A stretch of 27,948 bases of DNA, from positions 1 through 27,948 of IMG/VR virus record IMGVR_UViG_3300024511_000002; one strand, 5' to 3'. The notes under the pieces are model-generated. The model saw nothing but the letters and a program-made list of their open reading frames with translations. It was not told where the DNA came from and did no database searches. This stretch comes from a virus. Shown here in pieces: positions 16,033 to 24,440 of the stretch. The position numbers and the translations under genes were made by a program. Each line of letters starts with the position of its first letter. Within the stretch, counting starts at the first letter, position 1.

Positions 16033-16286
16033 GGCTCCACCTCCCGTTCCTCGCGCCAGTATTTGCCGCACCACACACAGTGGCCATACGCCAGCCCGCC
16101 CACGCTGTAGCCTGTAGTGGTCATGTTGTGCCCTGTCGCCACGCCGCACTTCTCGTGCAGGGCTTCGCGTGCGGGTCGTTGCTGCTCCGCGATCGCCTCC
16201 AGCGCAGAGGTCGACGCGCTGCGGCGCATCACATCGAGTCGCCAGTACTCAGCGATGATCTGCTTCTTGACCTGCTCGTCGCTCAT
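16029..16286 (-). CDS. Hypothetical small protein with CxxC (85 aa)
   Basis: Not recognised. The N-terminal half is a charged helix (MSDEQVKKQIIAEYWRLDVM) continuing through ALEAIAEQQRPAREALHEKC; the C-terminal half is short and strand-like with YGHCVWCGKYWREEREVEP, a CxxC pair followed by an aromatic and acidic tail. With Cys and His of HEKCGVATGH it could bind one zinc. The ATG at 16286 has GGAG eight bases upstream and overlaps the upstream HTH gene's stop by four bases. The frame is open upstream to 16439 but that part overlaps the HTH gene and lacks a ribosome site. Confidence 0.55.
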   Translation of the reverse strand: MSDEQVKKQIIAEYWRLDVMRRSASTSALEAIAEQQRPAREALHEKCGVATGHNMTTTGYSVGGLAYGHCVWCGKYWREEREVEP

Positions 16287-16498
16287 TGATCCATCTCCTT
16301 CCTCGGCAGCGTTCGCGGTCGACCGCCGGGGCCTCGCGACGGTCGCGACGGGTCGAGCTGGCGCAGGCGCTTGCGAAGGCTCTTGAGCGCGGCCAACGTC
16401 ATGCCCAGCCGGCGGGCGGCCTCGGGCAGCGTGGCGCACTGGTCGCAGACGTGGTCAATCCATGCAACGTCGGCGGCAGTTCGGGCTTTGGCGGTCAT
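16283..16498 (-). CDS. Small helix-turn-helix protein, candidate regulator (71 aa)
   Basis: The middle of the protein, TLPEAARRLGMTLAALKSLR, has the helix-turn-helix pattern (alanine at the fifth position of helix one, glycine at the turn, then a second helix), followed by a strongly basic C-terminus (SRPSRGPGGRPRTLPRKEMD). The preceding CDQC pair may add a zinc or disulfide. Such small proteins are often phage transcription regulators or the DNA-binding part of a larger complex; this is the only clear HTH protein of the early operon and so a candidate partner of the inverted repeats at 14806-14820 or in the control region. GGAG five bases before ATG 16498. Regulatory role inferred. Confidence 0.6.
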   Translation of the reverse strand: MTAKARTAADVAWIDHVCDQCATLPEAARRLGMTLAALKSLRKRLRQLDPSRPSRGPGGRPRTLPRKEMDQ

Positions 16499-16728
16499 CG
16501 GGTCTCCACGTCGCGCCGGTGTCGGCGGCAAAAGGTGCATCGCTGGCTGCGGCTGGCCCAACGGTGCGCTGGCAGCTGGCACTCGATGACCTGCGCGCGG
16601 TACCAGGCTTGGTAATGCGCCATGCACAGGTTGCGAGCCAAGCGCTTGCGGCCGCACTCGGTGCAGGCAGCCGTGGGCGGCAGGATGGTGGGGCGGCCTC
16701 GGGAGCCTTGGCTTCGTTTGCTACTCAC
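16495..16728 (-). CDS. Zinc-finger protein related to HNH/AP2-type phage proteins (77 aa)
   Basis: Central motif CTECGRKRLARNLCMAHYQA resembles the CxxCG ... A-x-G-L-C-x-x-HYQ element found at the start of many phage HNH endonucleases, and a second pair, RCTFCRRHRRD, lies near the C-terminus. No catalytic HNH histidine pair is seen, so this may be only the zinc-binding portion or a remnant. GTG start at 16728 is assumed: there is no good Shine-Dalgarno and no better codon in frame. Gap of 10 bases from the methyltransferase stop upstream. Stop overlaps the HTH gene by four bases. Confidence 0.5.
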   Translation of the reverse strand: MSSKRSQGSRGRPTILPPTAACTECGRKRLARNLCMAHYQAWYRAQVIECQLPAHRWASRSQRCTFCRRHRRDVETR

Positions 16729-16738
16729 GGCGGCTAAC

Positions 16739-17875
16739 TTATGCTCCCTCGTTGGACTTTCGGTCGACTGGCTTTGCTAACGCTTTGCTAATACGCTGGC
16801 CAATCCAACGCACCACCGGCACCGCCCAAGAGTTGCCGAGGGCCTTGTAGCGAGGCCCATCGGGACAGTCCGACGCCGGCTTTTTCTTCCACGGGATCAT
16901 CGTGTAGTCATCGGGGAACCCTTGCAGGCGCTCGCATTCACGCGGTGTCAGGCGGCGAACAGCCATAGGCGTCACCGCCATATGCTTGGGCGGGTTGTGA
17001 CGCTCGTCCCCGCCGTTGAGACAGGCGGCGACGTCGGCCTGTTCGTAGCGCGGGGCTTCGTCCGAGCTGTGCGGGCTGGTGGCTTTGACGAAAGCAACCA
17101 CGTTGAAGCTATCGGATCGACTATAGTCGTGCGATGTCGTTTCAAGCGTAGCCGCTACGTCTGATTCGCTGTTGCCCGCAAAGCATAGCGAAGCTGTGTC
17201 GGCAACTCCTTTCCGCGCTTCTCGGCTCGGCGCAATATCCCGTCGCAGGCCATCGGACTCAAATAAAATCGCGGCTGGATTGAGCCCGTTTCGAGTACCT
17301 GCGACAACGAACACACGGCGGCGTCGTTGGGCCAAGCCGAAATATTGGGCGTCGAGGACCCGCCACGCGACTGCTCTCGTGGGTCCAAGCACACAACCAG
17401 CGTCCGTCCATCGGCGCCCTGCCGGCTTGAGTGCGCAATCCTCCCCGGCAAGAGAGCCAAGGAAGCAGCCGAATGCGTTGTCCTCGGTGTTGAGTACGCC
17501 GGGGACGTTCTCCCAAAAGATGATGGCTCGATCTTGGCCTCGTCTGAGGCGAACAGCGTCAATTGCATCAGCGATCTCCACAAAGGTGAGGGTCAGGTTG
17601 CCGCGGGCGTCGTCGAGCGACCGCCGCAGGCCGGCAACGCTGAACGCTTGGCAAGGAGTACCGCCGCAAAGGAGGTCGGGCGCCTCGACATCGCCGGCGC
17701 GAATGCGACCAGGTAGCGCGGTCATATCGCCGTGGTTCGGCGTGGCCGGGTAATGATGCGCGAGCACGGCTGACGGAAACGGTTCGATTTCCGAGAACCA
17801 TGCAGCTCGCCAGCCAAGCGGCTTCCATGCCACCGACGCTGCCTCGATACCGCTGCACACGCTACCAAATCTCAT
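16739..17875 (-). CDS. C5-cytosine DNA methyltransferase (378 aa)
   Basis: Transfers a methyl group from S-adenosylmethionine to C5 of cytosine. All main motifs are in order: I, FGSVCSGIEAASVAW at residue 3; IV, GGTPCQAFSVAG with catalytic Cys75; VI, FWENVPGVL; VIII, GLAQRRRRVFVVAG; target-recognition region about 210-310; IX, RRLTPRECERLQGFPDDY; X, ALGNSWAVPVVRW. Length is normal for a single-chain enzyme. The recognition part and C-terminus are less G+C-rich than the N-terminus. No restriction gene is adjacent. A promoter ends seven bases before the ATG and there is no Shine-Dalgarno, so the mRNA may be leaderless. Sequence specificity cannot be read. Confidence 0.93.
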   Translation of the reverse strand: MRFGSVCSGIEAASVAWKPLGWRAAWFSEIEPFPSAVLAHHYPATPNHGDMTALPGRIRAGDVEAPDLLCGGTPCQAFSVAGLRRSLDDARGNLTLTFVEIADAIDAVRLRRGQDRAIIFWENVPGVLNTEDNAFGCFLGSLAGEDCALKPAGRRWTDAGCVLGPTRAVAWRVLDAQYFGLAQRRRRVFVVAGTRNGLNPAAILFESDGLRRDIAPSREARKGVADTASLCFAGNSESDVAATLETTSHDYSRSDSFNVVAFVKATSPHSSDEAPRYEQADVAACLNGGDERHNPPKHMAVTPMAVRRLTPRECERLQGFPDDYTMIPWKKKPASDCPDGPRYKALGNSWAVPVVRWIGQRISKALAKPVDRKSNEGA

Positions 17876-18656: not shown

Positions 18657-19019
18657 TCAAAAGGGCACGTCCTCGCCGCCGTAAGGATTGCCTGCCGGAG
18701 CCTGCTTGGCGCCGAGGGCCTGCACGGTGTCGACGACCAGGACGACGTCGCGCCGCTCGACGCCTTGCTTGTCGGTCCACACGTTGGGCTCGAGACGGCC
18801 GGCGAGAAGGACCGCATCGCCCCTCTTGAGCTTGGCGGCGAACTCGGCGCTTTTGCCGAAAGCGGTGCAGGCCAGCCACAGGGTCTGCTGCTTGTCGCCG
18901 TAGCCTACCGAGCTGGCGACGCGCAGGCGGGTGATGGCGGTGCCGCTGGCAGCGGTCTTGCTCTCGGCGTCGGCGCCGAGGCGGCCGGCGATGGTTAGGT
19001 GGTTGTAATTGGCAGACAT
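18657..19019 (-). CDS. ssb: Single-stranded DNA-binding protein (120 aa)
   Basis: OB-fold SSB protecting single strands in replication and recombination. Visible pattern: NHLTIAGRLGADAESKTAAS, then TAITRLRVASSVGYGDKQQT and LWLACTAFGKSAEFAAKLKR, GDAVLLAGRLEPN, and a short C-terminus ending GGEDVPF, the acidic tip that recruits partner proteins. It lacks the long disordered linker of bacterial SSB, as is common in phages. GGAG six bases before the ATG at 19019; 25 bases overlap with the upstream zinc-ribbon gene. Position between helicase and HNH/RecET genes fits a replication-recombination role. Confidence 0.9.
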   Translation of the reverse strand: MSANYNHLTIAGRLGADAESKTAASGTAITRLRVASSVGYGDKQQTLWLACTAFGKSAEFAAKLKRGDAVLLAGRLEPNVWTDKQGVERRDVVLVVDTVQALGAKQAPAGNPYGGEDVPF

Positions 19020-19237
19020 TGGGTGCTCCGTTGAGTCAAGGTCACGCGGCCAAGGCGCCACTGCACTCGCAGGTGGTTTTTTGAGCCGCAGGTGTCGCAC
19101 ACCACCGACAGGTGGCAGACGTAGGGGTCGCCCCACTGAGGGGCCAGATCGGGCTGGTGGAAGTCGCGCTCGCCGCACACACTGCACACGAGCTGCGGCT
19201 GGTCGGACAGCGGGTCATCAAGAAGCGGGCCATGCAT
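18995..19237 (-). CDS. Zinc-ribbon protein (80 aa)
   Basis: Two CxxC pairs spaced about 30 residues, LVCSVCGERDFHQ and SVVCDTCGSKNHL, make a typical zinc ribbon; RVQWRLGRVTLTQRSTQ follows as a strand-rich end. ATG at 19237 overlaps the helicase stop (ATGA) with GGAG nine bases upstream. The last 25 bases overlap the SSB start. A second ATG one base out of register opens a serine/alanine-rich shadow frame and is rejected. Small zinc ribbons next to primase-helicase genes may help the replisome, but I see no proof here. Confidence 0.65.
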   Translation of the reverse strand: MHGPLLDDPLSDQPQLVCSVCGERDFHQPDLAPQWGDPYVCHLSVVCDTCGSKNHLRVQWRLGRVTLTQRSTQCLPITTT

Positions 19238-20607
19238 CAGTCGGCGCTCCAGTGCGGCCGGATGACCGGCGGCGTATTGGCGACGAGGCGCACGCCGCGC
19301 CAGCTGCGGGTGGCGTTCGACTTGAGCTCGCGCACACCCTCTTTCACGAGCCGGTCGGCGACAGCCTTGGCCGACAAGATCGGGAGGCCATTCTCGATGC
19401 ACCAATTCTCGAACGCGCGCCTGAACTCGGCCTTGGGCGTGCTGTAGGAGGCCGCGGCGTCAACAAGACAGCAGTCCTCGAGGAACTGGCCGACGACGTC
19501 CTCGGCCTCGCGATATTCAAGCGACGCCTGCTCGACTGCCGAGCACATGCCGAGCCGGTCGGTGTGCCACATCATCGCGCCCTCGACGGCCCAGGTCAGA
19601 ATGCCATCCGCCTCGGCCATGAGCTTGTTCGGCAGCTCGCGGTCGATCTGGTGGTCCTCGATCTGCGCGAGGAACGGGATCAACCGCATCCGGCGCCACA
19701 TCCCACGGTCAGTGCCACGGATGCGCGGCTTGCTGTTGCCGCTGAGCCAGAGCGTCCACGTCGGCTCGTGCTCCTCGTTGTCCTGATGCAGGCGCCGAGC
19801 TTTGACCGGGTCGCCGCCGGTGAGCTCCTTGACCTTGCCTTCGTCGAGGGTGGCTGTGGGCGAGACCTCGGAGCCGACGGCGAAGCGGGCGCCAAACAGG
19901 TCGGCAATCTCGGTCGTGTGCGGCTTGTTTTTCTGCATCTCGAAAAAGGAGCCGGGCAGGATCGTCGCGTAGTCGCCGAGGATGCGACGAATGGCGTTCA
20001 AGATCGAGCCCTTGCCGTTGCCTCCACCGCCAAAGCAGAAGGCAAAGATCTGCTCTTGCTGATGGCCGTAGAGGCTGGCGCCGATCGCCCGTTGCAGCCA
20101 GCCGATCAGCTCGGCGTCGTCGCGCATTGCCCAGGCGACAAGGGCGGTCCACGTCGGCGCGCTCGAGCCCGGCGCATATCCGGCGCGGGTAATGCGGCTG
20201 CAATAGTCCTCGGGCCGGTGCTGGTGCAAGACGCCGGTGCGTAGATCGACGAGGCCCGTGGTGGTGTTGAGCGTGTTCGGATCGGCATCGAATCGCTCGA
20301 AGGTGGTCGCGATCTGGCGGTCGGCCTGCGCCAGCGTCACCATCGCCCGTTGGCGCGACAGGCTCTCGGATGATTCGCCCCACTTGCGAACGGCGTTCAT
20401 GCCTTCGACCGTGGCGGCGCTCGCGGCCTCGAGCTGGATGCCGCGCGCCACCAGACGGGCCGCAAGGTAGCGTTGTTCGGTCGTGTCGACGGCCCAGACC
20501 TTGCCATCCCACCGGCGCCACTGGTCACGGCTTGCAACGTATCGATATTCGGCGGCGAACTGGTCGGCGAATCGCTCGGCGTTGCCGAGGTCGGTCAACG
20601 GCCTCAT
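19237..20607 (-). CDS. D5/P4-type SF3 replicative helicase (456 aa)
   Basis: ATP-driven hexameric 3'-5' helicase of superfamily 3. N-terminal D5-like part (residues about 10-180) contains NTLNTTTGLVDLRTGVL; the ATPase core has Walker A GGGGNGKGS at 193-201, Walker B region RFAVGSEV near 241-248, sensor region WLSGNSKPRI near 288, and arginine-rich RGMWRRMRLIPF near 301. The last 60 residues (LPILSAKAVADRLVKEGVRE) look like the C-terminal winged helix of P4-type proteins. It lacks its own primase; that is the next gene upstream, overlapping by four bases. GGAGG six bases before the ATG at 20607 decides the start over longer open frame. Confidence 0.9.
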   Translation of the reverse strand: MRPLTDLGNAERFADQFAAEYRYVASRDQWRRWDGKVWAVDTTEQRYLAARLVARGIQLEAASAATVEGMNAVRKWGESSESLSRQRAMVTLAQADRQIATTFERFDADPNTLNTTTGLVDLRTGVLHQHRPEDYCSRITRAGYAPGSSAPTWTALVAWAMRDDAELIGWLQRAIGASLYGHQQEQIFAFCFGGGGNGKGSILNAIRRILGDYATILPGSFFEMQKNKPHTTEIADLFGARFAVGSEVSPTATLDEGKVKELTGGDPVKARRLHQDNEEHEPTWTLWLSGNSKPRIRGTDRGMWRRMRLIPFLAQIEDHQIDRELPNKLMAEADGILTWAVEGAMMWHTDRLGMCSAVEQASLEYREAEDVVGQFLEDCCLVDAAASYSTPKAEFRRAFENWCIENGLPILSAKAVADRLVKEGVRELKSNATRSWRGVRLVANTPPVIRPHWSAD

Positions 20608-21557: not shown

Positions 21558-21672
21558 GCGAGCCTCCAGCCATCGCCCACGACACCAGCAGGCGCAACCC
21601 CGGAAGTCGCGGAGACAGACACGCGACGTCGGGCCGTACTGATGCCGTGGGCGATAGCAAGGAGGTGAACAT
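21547..21672 (-). CDS. Possible leader peptide or small upstream gene (41 aa)
   Basis: The minus-strand ATG at 21672 follows shared leader block C (GGAGACAG ending seven bases before it) and the predicted promoter at 21720-21748, exactly as the first genes after blocks A and B. It encodes MFTSLLSPTASVRPDVACLS and on, with a hydrophobic LRLLVSWAMAGG near the end, stopping at 21547, 11 bases inside the primase gene. No family recognised. It may be a leader peptide coupling translation of the primase. A competing plus-strand open frame (21671-21832) covers part of the same bases, so only one, or neither, may be real. Confidence 0.35.
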   Translation of the reverse strand: MFTSLLSPTASVRPDVACLSPRLPGLRLLVSWAMAGGSHAT

Positions 21673-21748: not shown

Positions 21749-21762
21749 GACGGCCACCAAAA

Positions 21763-21777
21763 GGGACACGAGGGACA
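21763..21777 (+). repeat. GGGACACGAGGGACA element 1
   Basis: Direct copy, core CGAGGGACA at 21769-21777, followed by AG rather than CG. Within the plus strand it contains two GGGACA half-sites nine bases apart. Confidence 0.6.
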
Positions 21778-21793
21778 AGCGCGGGCCTCGATT

Positions 21794-21810
21794 CGGGACG
21801 CTTTGTCCCG
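21794..21810. repeat. Palindrome CGGGAC-N5-GTCCCG
   Basis: Perfect 6-base arms around GCTTT; shares the GGGAC half-site with the neighbouring elements. No T-run follows, so it is not read as a terminator. Confidence 0.5.
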
Positions 21811-21837
21811 TGGTAAGGGGCTGAGACCATAAGGGAA

Positions 21838-21854
21838 GGGACACGAGGGACACG
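21838..21854 (+). repeat. GGGACACGAGGGACACG element 2
   Basis: Exact CGAGGGACACG core at 21844-21854, same orientation as the copy at 21763, directly before a TTTTTT run that opens the A/T-rich stretch. Confidence 0.65.
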
Positions 21855-21869
21855 TTTTTTCTAGAATGG

Positions 21870-21883
21870 GGATCACATGATCC
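21870..21883. repeat. Palindrome GGATCA-CA-TGATCC
   Basis: Perfect 6-base arms with a 2-base centre inside the A/T-rich stretch; contains two GATC sites, possible targets of Dam-type methylation. Regulator or initiator binding is inferred. Confidence 0.45.
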
Positions 21884-21939
21884 AATTACAGGTTGGGAAA
21901 AAGGCCCAATTTCTCTAATTAGGAAAGTTCCAGCCAAAT

Positions 21940-21956
21940 CGTGTCCCTCGCGTCCC
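21940..21956 (-). repeat. GGGACGCGAGGGACACG element 3
   Basis: Minus-strand copy with the exact CGAGGGACACG core (plus strand CGTGTCCCTCG at 21940-21950), facing the two plus-strand copies across the A/T-rich stretch. Confidence 0.65.
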
Positions 21957-21993
21957 AATGGCTGAAAGGTCGCGCAATGGTTGAGCAAAGTGC

Positions 21994-22013
21994 GGGACAC
22001 GTCGTGTCCCTCG
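21994..22013 (-). repeat. Element 4 with GGGACAC-N3-GTGTCCC palindrome
   Basis: Perfect 7-base arms at 21994-22010, and the right arm extends to the exact CGAGGGACACG core on the minus strand (22013-22003). Lies 20 bases upstream of the rightward -35 box. Confidence 0.65.
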
Positions 22014-22033
22014 CGGGCGCCCGCGGTTTACGG

Positions 22034-22109: not shown

Positions 22110-22706
22110 ATGCCGATCGCCACGTTCACCGCCAAGGAGCTCTCGAGGCTCTCCGGTTTCAGTTACTCCAACCCGGCCTCGCAGGCTGTAGCCACCAAGC
22201 TCAACGCTGTAACGGCGGAAGTCGTGCAGAACAACCCGTTTGCTCCGGTGAGCGATTCGGTCGCGAGTGCGGCTGGCCCCGTCACGACGGCGTTCGCTAC
22301 CAAGGTGACGATTCCGGCAAACACGCTGGCTGTGGGCTCGCGGTTGCGGATTACCGCGGCGGGCACCGTGGTTGCCTCGGCTGGCGCGGTCAACCTGACG
22401 CTCTCGATCAAGCTGGGCGCGACGACCGTCGTCACGACTGCGGCCTACGACCCGGCGGCCACCAATCCCTTCCTGATCAGCTCGGACGTCATCGTCCAGT
22501 CGGTGGGCGCGGGAGGCAAGTTCAACAGCGGTTCGCTCATGGTCTACAAGACCTCGACGCCGTCGACGGTGACCGACGTGGCGAGCGCCTATCAGGCCAA
22601 CGTCAACACCACCATCGCCAACGACGTGACCGTCGTCGCCTCGTGGGCGGCTGGCGCAGGCGAGACGGTGGTGCTCAACGTGCTGTCGGTCGATCTGACC
22701 TACTAA
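22110..22706 (+). CDS. Predicted beta-sandwich virion protein (198 aa)
   Basis: No named family recalled with certainty. The pattern FATKVTIPANTLAVGSRLRI followed by TAAGTVVASAGAVNLTLSIK and FLISSDVIVQSVGAGGKFNS resembles jelly-roll domains that occur in fibre, decoration and base proteins of phages: alternating strands, many Thr, Val, Ala and Gly, no Cys. N-terminal 35 residues look helical (AKELSRLSGFSYSNPASQAV). AAGGAG five bases before the ATG at 22110. It is the first gene of the rightward unit and lies apart from the other fibre genes, so it may be a late-made decoration or fibre protein. Structural role inferred. Confidence 0.6.
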   Translation: MPIATFTAKELSRLSGFSYSNPASQAVATKLNAVTAEVVQNNPFAPVSDSVASAAGPVTTAFATKVTIPANTLAVGSRLRITAAGTVVASAGAVNLTLSIKLGATTVVTTAAYDPAATNPFLISSDVIVQSVGAGGKFNSGSLMVYKTSTPSTVTDVASAYQANVNTTIANDVTVVASWAAGAGETVVLNVLSVDLTY

Positions 22707-22723
22707 CCTGCGCTGGAGGGCGC

Positions 22724-24013
22724 GTGAGCAAAGACCTTCGCAACGTGCCCGACAATCAGGCGGCGGCAGTCTGGGAGCCGCTCACGGTATTGCAGCCGTG
22801 GGCGGCCAACCCTCGCGACAACAAGGCGGCGATCGACGAGGTGGCCAAGTCCATCCGGCGCTTCGGCTGGGGCGCGCCCATCGTCGCCAACGCGCGCAAC
22901 GGCGAGATCATCGCAGGGCATACGCGGTATGCGGCGGCGCAGAAGCTCAAGCTCGACCAGGTGCCAGTGCGATGGCTCGACCTTGATCCGGCCGATGCTC
23001 ACGCGCTCGCGCTCGCGGACAACAAGGTGGGCGAAGTGGCGACGTGGGACGATGCGACGTTGCGCCAAGTGCTCGCCGAGCTGAAGGAGGCAGACGAATC
23101 GCTGCTGGCGGATACAGGCTTCAGCGACGAGGAATTGGCGCGGCTGCTTGGCGATGTCGAGCCGACGGTGCTGGAGCCAGAAGGCGAGCCGCCAGAGGTC
23201 GACGAGGCGGGGCCGGTGCATAGCGTGCCGGGAGAGATCTATCAGCTAGGGCCGCATCGGTTGATGTGCGGCGACTCGACGAGCGTGGATGCGGTCGAGC
23301 GGTTGATGCAGGGCGAGAAGGCGGATCTTTGCTTTACGTCCCCGCCCTACAATGCTGGCGATAGCGAGCGACTATCAGGCAACACGCACACAACAGACAA
23401 CAAGTATGGACTGTATCAAGACAACAAGTCCCATGGCGAATACAAAGACCTATTGTGTGAGTTTAGCTCTACATGGCTGATGGTTAGCAAGTGCCTGTGT
23501 GTCAACATGCAACAGCTTGCCGGTAACAAGATTGCGTTTGTTGAGTATCTGCACGAAATGAGATCGCATCTTGTTGACGTTGCAATCTGGGATAAAGGTC
23601 ACGGCGCCCCTCAGATGGCGGCCAACGTTATGGCTAATCGCTTTGAATACCTTATCTTTCTATCGCCACAACCCAATCCGAGCAGGGCGATACCATGCGC
23701 CTCTTTTCAAGGCACAGTGCAGAACGTTTATTCTGCGCCACCTCAACGGAACAATGAGTTTGCGAACATTCATGCCGCAACTTTTCCGATTCATCTGCCA
23801 ACGTGGGCAATCGAAACATTTACATCAGTTGACGCAATCATAAGCGATGCTTTTGGTGGAACGGGGACGACGCTTATCGCCTCGGCGCAAAGCGGACGCA
23901 AGGCGCGGCTGATGGAGCTTGATCCGCGATACTGTGACGTCATCCGGCGGCGGTGGACGCGATGGGCCAAGGCCAACAACGTCGAGGCCGGTAGCGGGGC
24001 GCTCGATGGGTAG
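22724..24013 (+). CDS. ParB-like domain fused to DNA methyltransferase (429 aa)
   Basis: N-terminal ParB/sulfiredoxin-type domain: LQPWAANPRDNKAAIDEVAK, FGWGAPIVANARNGEIIAGH and TRYAAAQKLKLDQVPVRWLD, followed by LALADNKVGEVATWDDATLR. C-terminal methyltransferase: LGPHRLMCGDSTSVDAVERL, motif IV TSPPYNAG near 205-212, and motif I DAFGGTGTTLIASAQ near 375, i.e. beta class with SPPY, suggesting N4-cytosine or N6-adenine. The fusion is common in phages next to terminase. GTG 22724 with GGAGGG five bases upstream. Nucleotides about 23350-23870 (recognition part) are clearly richer in A+T than both flanks, a sign of module exchange. Stop overlaps the small terminase gene by eight bases. Confidence 0.88.
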   Translation: MSKDLRNVPDNQAAAVWEPLTVLQPWAANPRDNKAAIDEVAKSIRRFGWGAPIVANARNGEIIAGHTRYAAAQKLKLDQVPVRWLDLDPADAHALALADNKVGEVATWDDATLRQVLAELKEADESLLADTGFSDEELARLLGDVEPTVLEPEGEPPEVDEAGPVHSVPGEIYQLGPHRLMCGDSTSVDAVERLMQGEKADLCFTSPPYNAGDSERLSGNTHTTDNKYGLYQDNKSHGEYKDLLCEFSSTWLMVSKCLCVNMQQLAGNKIAFVEYLHEMRSHLVDVAIWDKGHGAPQMAANVMANRFEYLIFLSPQPNPSRAIPCASFQGTVQNVYSAPPQRNNEFANIHAATFPIHLPTWAIETFTSVDAIISDAFGGTGTTLIASAQSGRKARLMELDPRYCDVIRRRWTRWAKANNVEAGSGALDG

Positions 24014-24440
24014 TCCAGGTCGGCCAACCAAGCGCACGCCTGAGACGGTCAAGAAGCTGTGCGATGCGATTCGGCTCGGCGCAAGCTACGGCGATGCGTG
24101 CGGCTATGCTGGGATCGACCATGACACATTTACGCGGTGGCGGCAGGATTTCCCGGAATTTGCGGCAGAAGTAAAGGAAGCAGAAGGCAGCGGCCGCGTG
24201 CAGCTCATCGCCAAGATCCAGAAGGCGGCGAATGACGGCAACTGGCAAGCGGCAGCGTGGATGCTCGAGCGGCGAGACCCGCAGAATTACGGGCGCACCA
24301 TGCGGACGCAGGTGACCGGCGCCGACGGCGGCCCGGTGCAGATGGCGGCTCAGGTCGTGGTGGTTCCGGCGCTGGCAAGCTCGTCCGACGAGTGGGCATC
24401 GACGCTGGCCATCGAGGCGCCGAGCGATGGCGCCGACTAA
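24006..24440 (+). CDS. terS: Terminase small subunit (144 aa)
   Basis: DNA-recognition subunit of the packaging motor. Visible pattern: GRPTKRTPETVKKLCDAIRL, GASYGDACGYAGIDHDTFTRW (helix-turn-helix), then EFAAEVKEAEGSGRVQLIAK and DGNWQAAAWMLERRDPQNYG, as in the terminase-small-subunit-like family. The C-terminus is short and acidic, likely the contact with the large subunit. ATG at 24006 overlaps the methyltransferase stop by eight bases; Shine-Dalgarno is weak, so translation is coupled. The large subunit gene starts 14 bases before this one ends. Confidence 0.85.
   Translation: MGSPGRPTKRTPETVKKLCDAIRLGASYGDACGYAGIDHDTFTRWRQDFPEFAAEVKEAEGSGRVQLIAKIQKAANDGNWQAAAWMLERRDPQNYGRTMRTQVTGADGGPVQMAAQVVVVPALASSSDEWASTLAIEAPSDGAD

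Follow-up and report, generated by a model that had tools for sequence, protein, structure and literature searches.

Facing GGGACA iterons around an A/T-rich core: a probable replication origin beside the D5-type helicase operon of an uncharacterised bacterial virus

The 27,948-bp virus record analysed here, the whole of which is referred to as the window, contains two divergent sets of genes, and the region between them is filled with short GGGACA repeats. What these repeats do is the question raised by this locus, for which the original prediction had offered two answers: an origin of replication, or a master operator for both divergent promoters. A megablast of the 15-27.9 kb segment against isolated phages matched three records that covered at most 5% of the query.

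To the left of the array, a primase gene, whose start was placed at the conserved MRPDLAQ, overlaps a helicase gene via ATGA, and the gene for a single-strand binding protein belongs to the same leftward operon (Table 1). Two reading frames are open in the interval of the candidate leader ORF, which is therefore regarded as putatively coding. A perfect Shine-Dalgarno sequence (AAGGAGGTGA) on the plus strand near 21660 was also considered, but it is read as antisense to the start of this ORF. To the right of the array lie a gene for a 198-amino-acid protein without a family match, a gene for a ParB-like domain fused to a methyltransferase, and the genes for the small and large terminase subunits and the portal. 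A second methyltransferase, of the cytosine type, is encoded at 16739-17875 on the minus strand.

Table 1. Coordinates of the repeat array and of the genes around it in the window.
Feature	Position	Strand	Remarks
Single-strand binding protein, leftward operon	18657..19187	-	Pfam SSB
D5_N/DUF5906 initiator-type helicase, 456 aa	19237..20607	-	Pfam, structure model and comparison
RepB_primase-like primase, 317 aa	20604..21557	-	First recognised gene of the leftward operon; PF16793 barely above cut-off; PHROG DNA primase
Candidate leader ORF, 41 aa	21547..21672	-	Stop overlaps primase start; similar ORF in L130
Outer iteron pair GGGACACGAGGGACA	21763..21777	+	9-bp spacing; exact second copy at 21838
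Inverted GGGAC/GTCCC pair	21795..21809	.	Within palindrome CGGGAC-N5-GTCCCG; not kept in relatives
Inner left iteron pair GGGACACGAGGGACA	21838..21852	+	Faces right
A/T-rich core, 91 bp	21852..21942	.	60% A+T vs 33% in flanks; proposed melting site
Inner right iteron pair TGTCCCTCGCGTCCC	21942..21956	-	Faces left
Inverted iteron pair GGGACAC-GTC-GTGTCCC	21994..22010	.	
ParB-like domain fused to DNA methyltransferase	22643-24013	+	
Terminase small subunit (TerS)	23919-24440		

All of the repeat copies named in the original prediction are present, at 21769-21777 (CGAGGGACA), 21844-21854 (CGAGGGACACG, plus strand), 21940-21950 (minus strand) and 22003-22013 (minus strand), as are its three palindromes, GGATCACATGATCC (21870-21883), CGGGAC-N5-GTCCCG (21794-21810) and GGGACAC-N3-GTGTCCC (21994-22010). 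However, the 11-mer CGAGGGACACG is half of the real repeat unit, which is GGGACA(C), arranged mainly as pairs with a spacing of 9 bp (GGGACACGAGGGACA). Ten GGGAC cores, six on the plus strand and four on the minus strand, lie within the 248 bp of 21763-22010; ten per 290 bp compares with a maximum of five in 30 first-order Markov simulations, and no 7-mer of the window clusters more strongly than AGGGACA, with six copies in 300 bp. Over the whole window, the 11-mer with two mismatches was found 21 times against 18.4 expected, which is not above chance, and the signal is therefore one of local clustering. Scattering of the element through the genome would have told against the prediction; in the window, its copies are concentrated at the array.

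Between the innermost facing iteron pairs lies the 90-bp stretch with the lowest stability in the window. The description of this segment as the only A/T-rich core of the window is thus correct insofar as it is the most A/T-rich and the least stable, but it overstates the case in that the region at 23.4-23.8 kb is nearly equal in A+T. A second expectation, that the cumulative GC skew should have its minimum at the array, was contradicted: the minimum lies at 16304, 5.5 kb away. This is a weak test, as the completeness of the record is uncertain, yet its outcome counts against the reading as an origin, and so does the position of the array 5′ of the operon.

Protein searches identified L005/L129, L130, L484 and L487 as members of the same clade; the sequence of L004 stops short of the array region. 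In the window, L484, L130, L129 and L487, the innermost facing GGGAC sites are 87-91 bp apart, and the core between them has an A+T content of 60-62%, compared with 33-38% in the flanks. The symmetrical layout on which the prediction depended is therefore kept among relatives, in the facing iterons as well as in the length of the core. An alignment of the window with L484, L130 and L129 places the inner iterons among the invariant blocks and shows no conservation of the core sequence. The palindromes are likewise not conserved in L484, L130 or L129, in contrast to the facing iterons and the length of the core. Furthermore, three loci with helicases that are approximately 35% identical to that of the window over the aligned part (L040, L118 and L198) possess, 0.3-1 kb beyond the 3′ end of the helicase gene, near-mirror-image GGGAC arrays that face each other across cores of approximately 93-124 bp.

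These observations bear on the possibility of an operator, in which a repressor or activator bound to the GGGACA sites would control the divergent promoters, possibly in addition to a role of the array as an origin. The array does fill the divergent intergenic region, and one sigma-70-like match (21838-21867, where 0.1 are expected) overlaps an iteron pair. Yet ten sites over 248 bp, surrounding a core that is constant in length but free in sequence, go beyond the need of a simple operator; no repressor gene adjoins the array, and the arrays of relatives come after the helicase stop codon rather than at a promoter region. Control of the promoters is thus an unlikely function for the array. The HTH protein near 16283-16657, which had been proposed to bind the elements, gave only a sub-threshold HTH match.

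The structure model of the helicase, based on a 26-row alignment and with a mean pLDDT of 88.7, ends in a winged helix at approximately residues 389-441. Comparison with VIA-align 2 matched the model to ASFV C962R (Z 32.1), the SaPI5 primase-helicase (Z 29.8, residues 1-445), poxvirus D5/E5 (Z approximately 27) and papillomavirus E1 (Z 13.7), and a sequence search agrees with the fold match (7ola, E 2.6e-5). The SaPI Rep protein reads its own origin through its C-terminal domain (PMC7581432). In the window, the likeliest binder of the iterons is similarly the C-terminal winged helix of the helicase itself, and the GGGACA sites are probably docking sites for this protein.

The origins of SaPI and PICI elements (PMC6092414, PMC7581432; PDB 7OLA, 7OM0) resemble the present locus in having two sets of short iterons around an A/T-rich region, as well as a D5-type helicase with a C-terminal DNA-binding domain, predicted as such in the window, and an adjoining primase gene. 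There are nevertheless three differences. The iteron word of the window, GGGACA, is unlike that of SaPI/PICI; the SaPI/PICI origin lies immediately 3′ of rep, while the array of the window lies 5′ of the operon, in the divergent region; and SaPI/PICI elements are satellites without virion genes of their own, while the record encodes small and large terminase subunits and a portal. As the array is not in the 3′ position and the record is that of a phage rather than a satellite, the locus is not classed as a PICI origin.

Other initiators show comparable combinations of features. The alpha protein of phage P4, which has its own ori and crr, is a helicase whose C-terminal winged helix reads iterons, as is predicted for that of the window. 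P4 alpha has been named as a related satellite system (PMC6092414), but it is a single fused Toprim primase-helicase (PMC4234260), whereas the window has separate, overlapping genes and a primase that matches RepB_primase. The initiator helicase Cch2 of SCCmec is also alike, in that its isolated C-terminal domain binds its own origin repeats, which are short direct repeats adjoining the gene (PMC7581432); conversely, it represents another helicase family with another polymerase-primase, and its repeats are located downstream of the helicase gene. Similarly, ORF904 of pRN1 combines a primase with an SF3 helicase bearing a C-terminal winged helix, and its origin adjoins the gene, although, unlike in the window, that origin is devoid of iterons and consists of a stem-loop of 100 nt on the downstream side (PMC4234260).

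The association between such arrays and this helicase family extends well beyond the window clade. Among 80 IMG/VR D5_N loci collected with a five-protein alignment as the query, which include many closely related prophages and are not independent cases, the strongest 7-mer cluster lay near the helicase 3′ end in most of the loci that had a cluster; the exceptions include the window clade, where it is 5′, and several distant clusters. In cellular genomes from many phyla, 69 loci yielded 42 strong two-strand clusters. Of these, 37 lay at the 3′ end of the helicase gene, where random placement would give 3.4, and none at the 5′ end. In most sampled D5_N loci, therefore, an iteron array adjoins the helicase gene, with a word that varies and copies that usually face each other across an A/T-rich core. 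The D5_N and VapE loci provided 31 distinct words, and for 27 of them the most A/T-rich gap was bounded by opposite-facing iterons, although the A+T excess of these gaps is biased because they were picked for high A+T. Part of the VapE sample had no such array, and a scan with the single Prim-Pol helicase of L022 returned two loci, a number too small to be informative. Taken together, the surveys point to a common arrangement in phages and prophages, namely a D5_N or VapE helicase gene with facing iterons next to it that enclose an A/T-rich core, and origin prediction from sequence could thus become feasible for many uncultured phages. In the window, no GGGAC occurs at the helicase 3′ end (18900-19300), and the evidence supports regarding the 5′ position of its array, relative to the primase-helicase operon, as a variant feature of an otherwise SaPI/PICI-like origin.

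The stretch is therefore very probably the replication origin of an uncharacterised bacterial virus. This agrees with the origin half of the original prediction, given the A/T-rich core between iterons, the persistence of the layout in divergent relatives, and the arrays that adjoin the D5_N helicase gene in most of the phages and prophages sampled. We place at roughly 0.8 the probability that the origin is SaPI/PICI-like, with two helicase hexamers arranged face to face. The D5_N helicase from the leftward operon would bind the GGGACA iterons via its C-terminal winged helix, and two hexamers could then assemble face to face on the innermost pairs, which face each other across the core, and melt it. 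The primase of the operon would subsequently prime synthesis in both directions, while the single-strand binding protein would cover the single strands.

The genes to the right of the array suggest two other roles. The array could serve as a centromere to which the protein encoded at 22643-24013 binds through its ParB-like domain; the gene for this protein lies next door in a position that is kept in L005, and a ParB-like gene is found near the GGGACA array of L011 too. However, the fusion of this domain with a DNA methyltransferase points to DNA modification, no ParA could be recognised, and arrays of like layout in relatives accompany the helicase gene, all of which makes a partition site very improbable. 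Alternatively, the array could be a packaging site (cos or pac) read by the terminase, given that packaging genes lie to its right and that some GGGACA arrays directly precede a TerS gene (L021, L010, L011). Yet the TerS gene of the window is 1.9 kb away, with two other genes between, and facing iterons with an A/T-rich core fit the published organisation of PICI origins; the chance that the array directs packaging is accordingly judged to be very small.

If the array is read as an origin by the winged helix, the relationship between the iteron word and the wing becomes of interest. This was compared in pairs of helicases from outside the window clade with bodies at least 80% identical, the pairs being phylogenetically dependent. 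When both the HTH and the wing were the same, the word was the same in 104 of 104 pairs; when the HTH was the same but the wing differed, the word differed in 55 of 55. A shared word was also seen in four pairs whose wings were the same but whose HTHs differed, and where both differed, the word differed in 341 pairs and was shared in 12. In L136 and L138, the aligned helicase body is identical while wings and words differ, and natural pairs such as this one make origin recognition by initiator helicases directly testable. In those prophages the wing codons abut the array, so that the co-variation of word and wing could reflect linkage (co-inheritance); in the window clade, approximately 2.4 kb separate the array from the wing codons. 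A wing motif common to the window and L040 clades was also considered. A regular expression for it matched only GGGAC-bearing clades, but it had been written after seeing them, and as an unbiased BLOSUM comparison placed the L040 clade at ranks 40-48 of 117, the motif was dropped. Outside the clade, the wings with the highest scores, those of L408 and L135, are not accompanied by a GGGAC array.

For the GGGACA word itself, an IMG/VR search with the pattern GGGACACNNGGGACAC returned at least 120 loci. Same-strand clusters were rejected as evidence, since they were also numerous in the control with the reversed word CACAGGGNNCACAGGG, where they are probably repeats within coding sequence; to discriminate, a cluster must have two or more copies on both strands. 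Such two-strand clusters occurred in 30 of 119 loci for GGGACA but in none of 119 when the word was reversed, among the matches listed and with this one reversed word as the control. Recognised neighbours of the arrays, among the matches listed, include D5_N, VapE, Prim-Pol/AAA_25, Toprim/AAA_25 and DUF927 proteins, while at some of the loci no helicase was recognised. A literature search for such repeats in phages found nothing on target among the titles listed. GGGACA might be an origin word common to unrelated phage initiators, by convergence or exchange, with the wing setting the word within one family; we consider this doubtful, but if it were true, origin specificity would be a swappable module.

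Several of these loci have features of their own. In 39 related low-GC IMG/VR loci (for example L011:4328-4423 and L010:5406-5698), five to eight GGGACA copies directly precede a TerS-like gene, and a ParB-like gene is close by. In five of these records no D5_N helicase was found, nor AAA_25 or DnaB_C in three of the five. Two extreme arrays, with 26 copies (L117:768-1060) and 18 copies (L096:996-1172) per 300 bp, have no recognised helicase adjoining them. Finally, the array at L079:4465-4604 belongs to the coding sequence of a helicase, in whose 3′ part it immediately precedes the codons for a winged-helix-like segment at the C terminus, and its iterons are consequently translated, partly as VPTVP.
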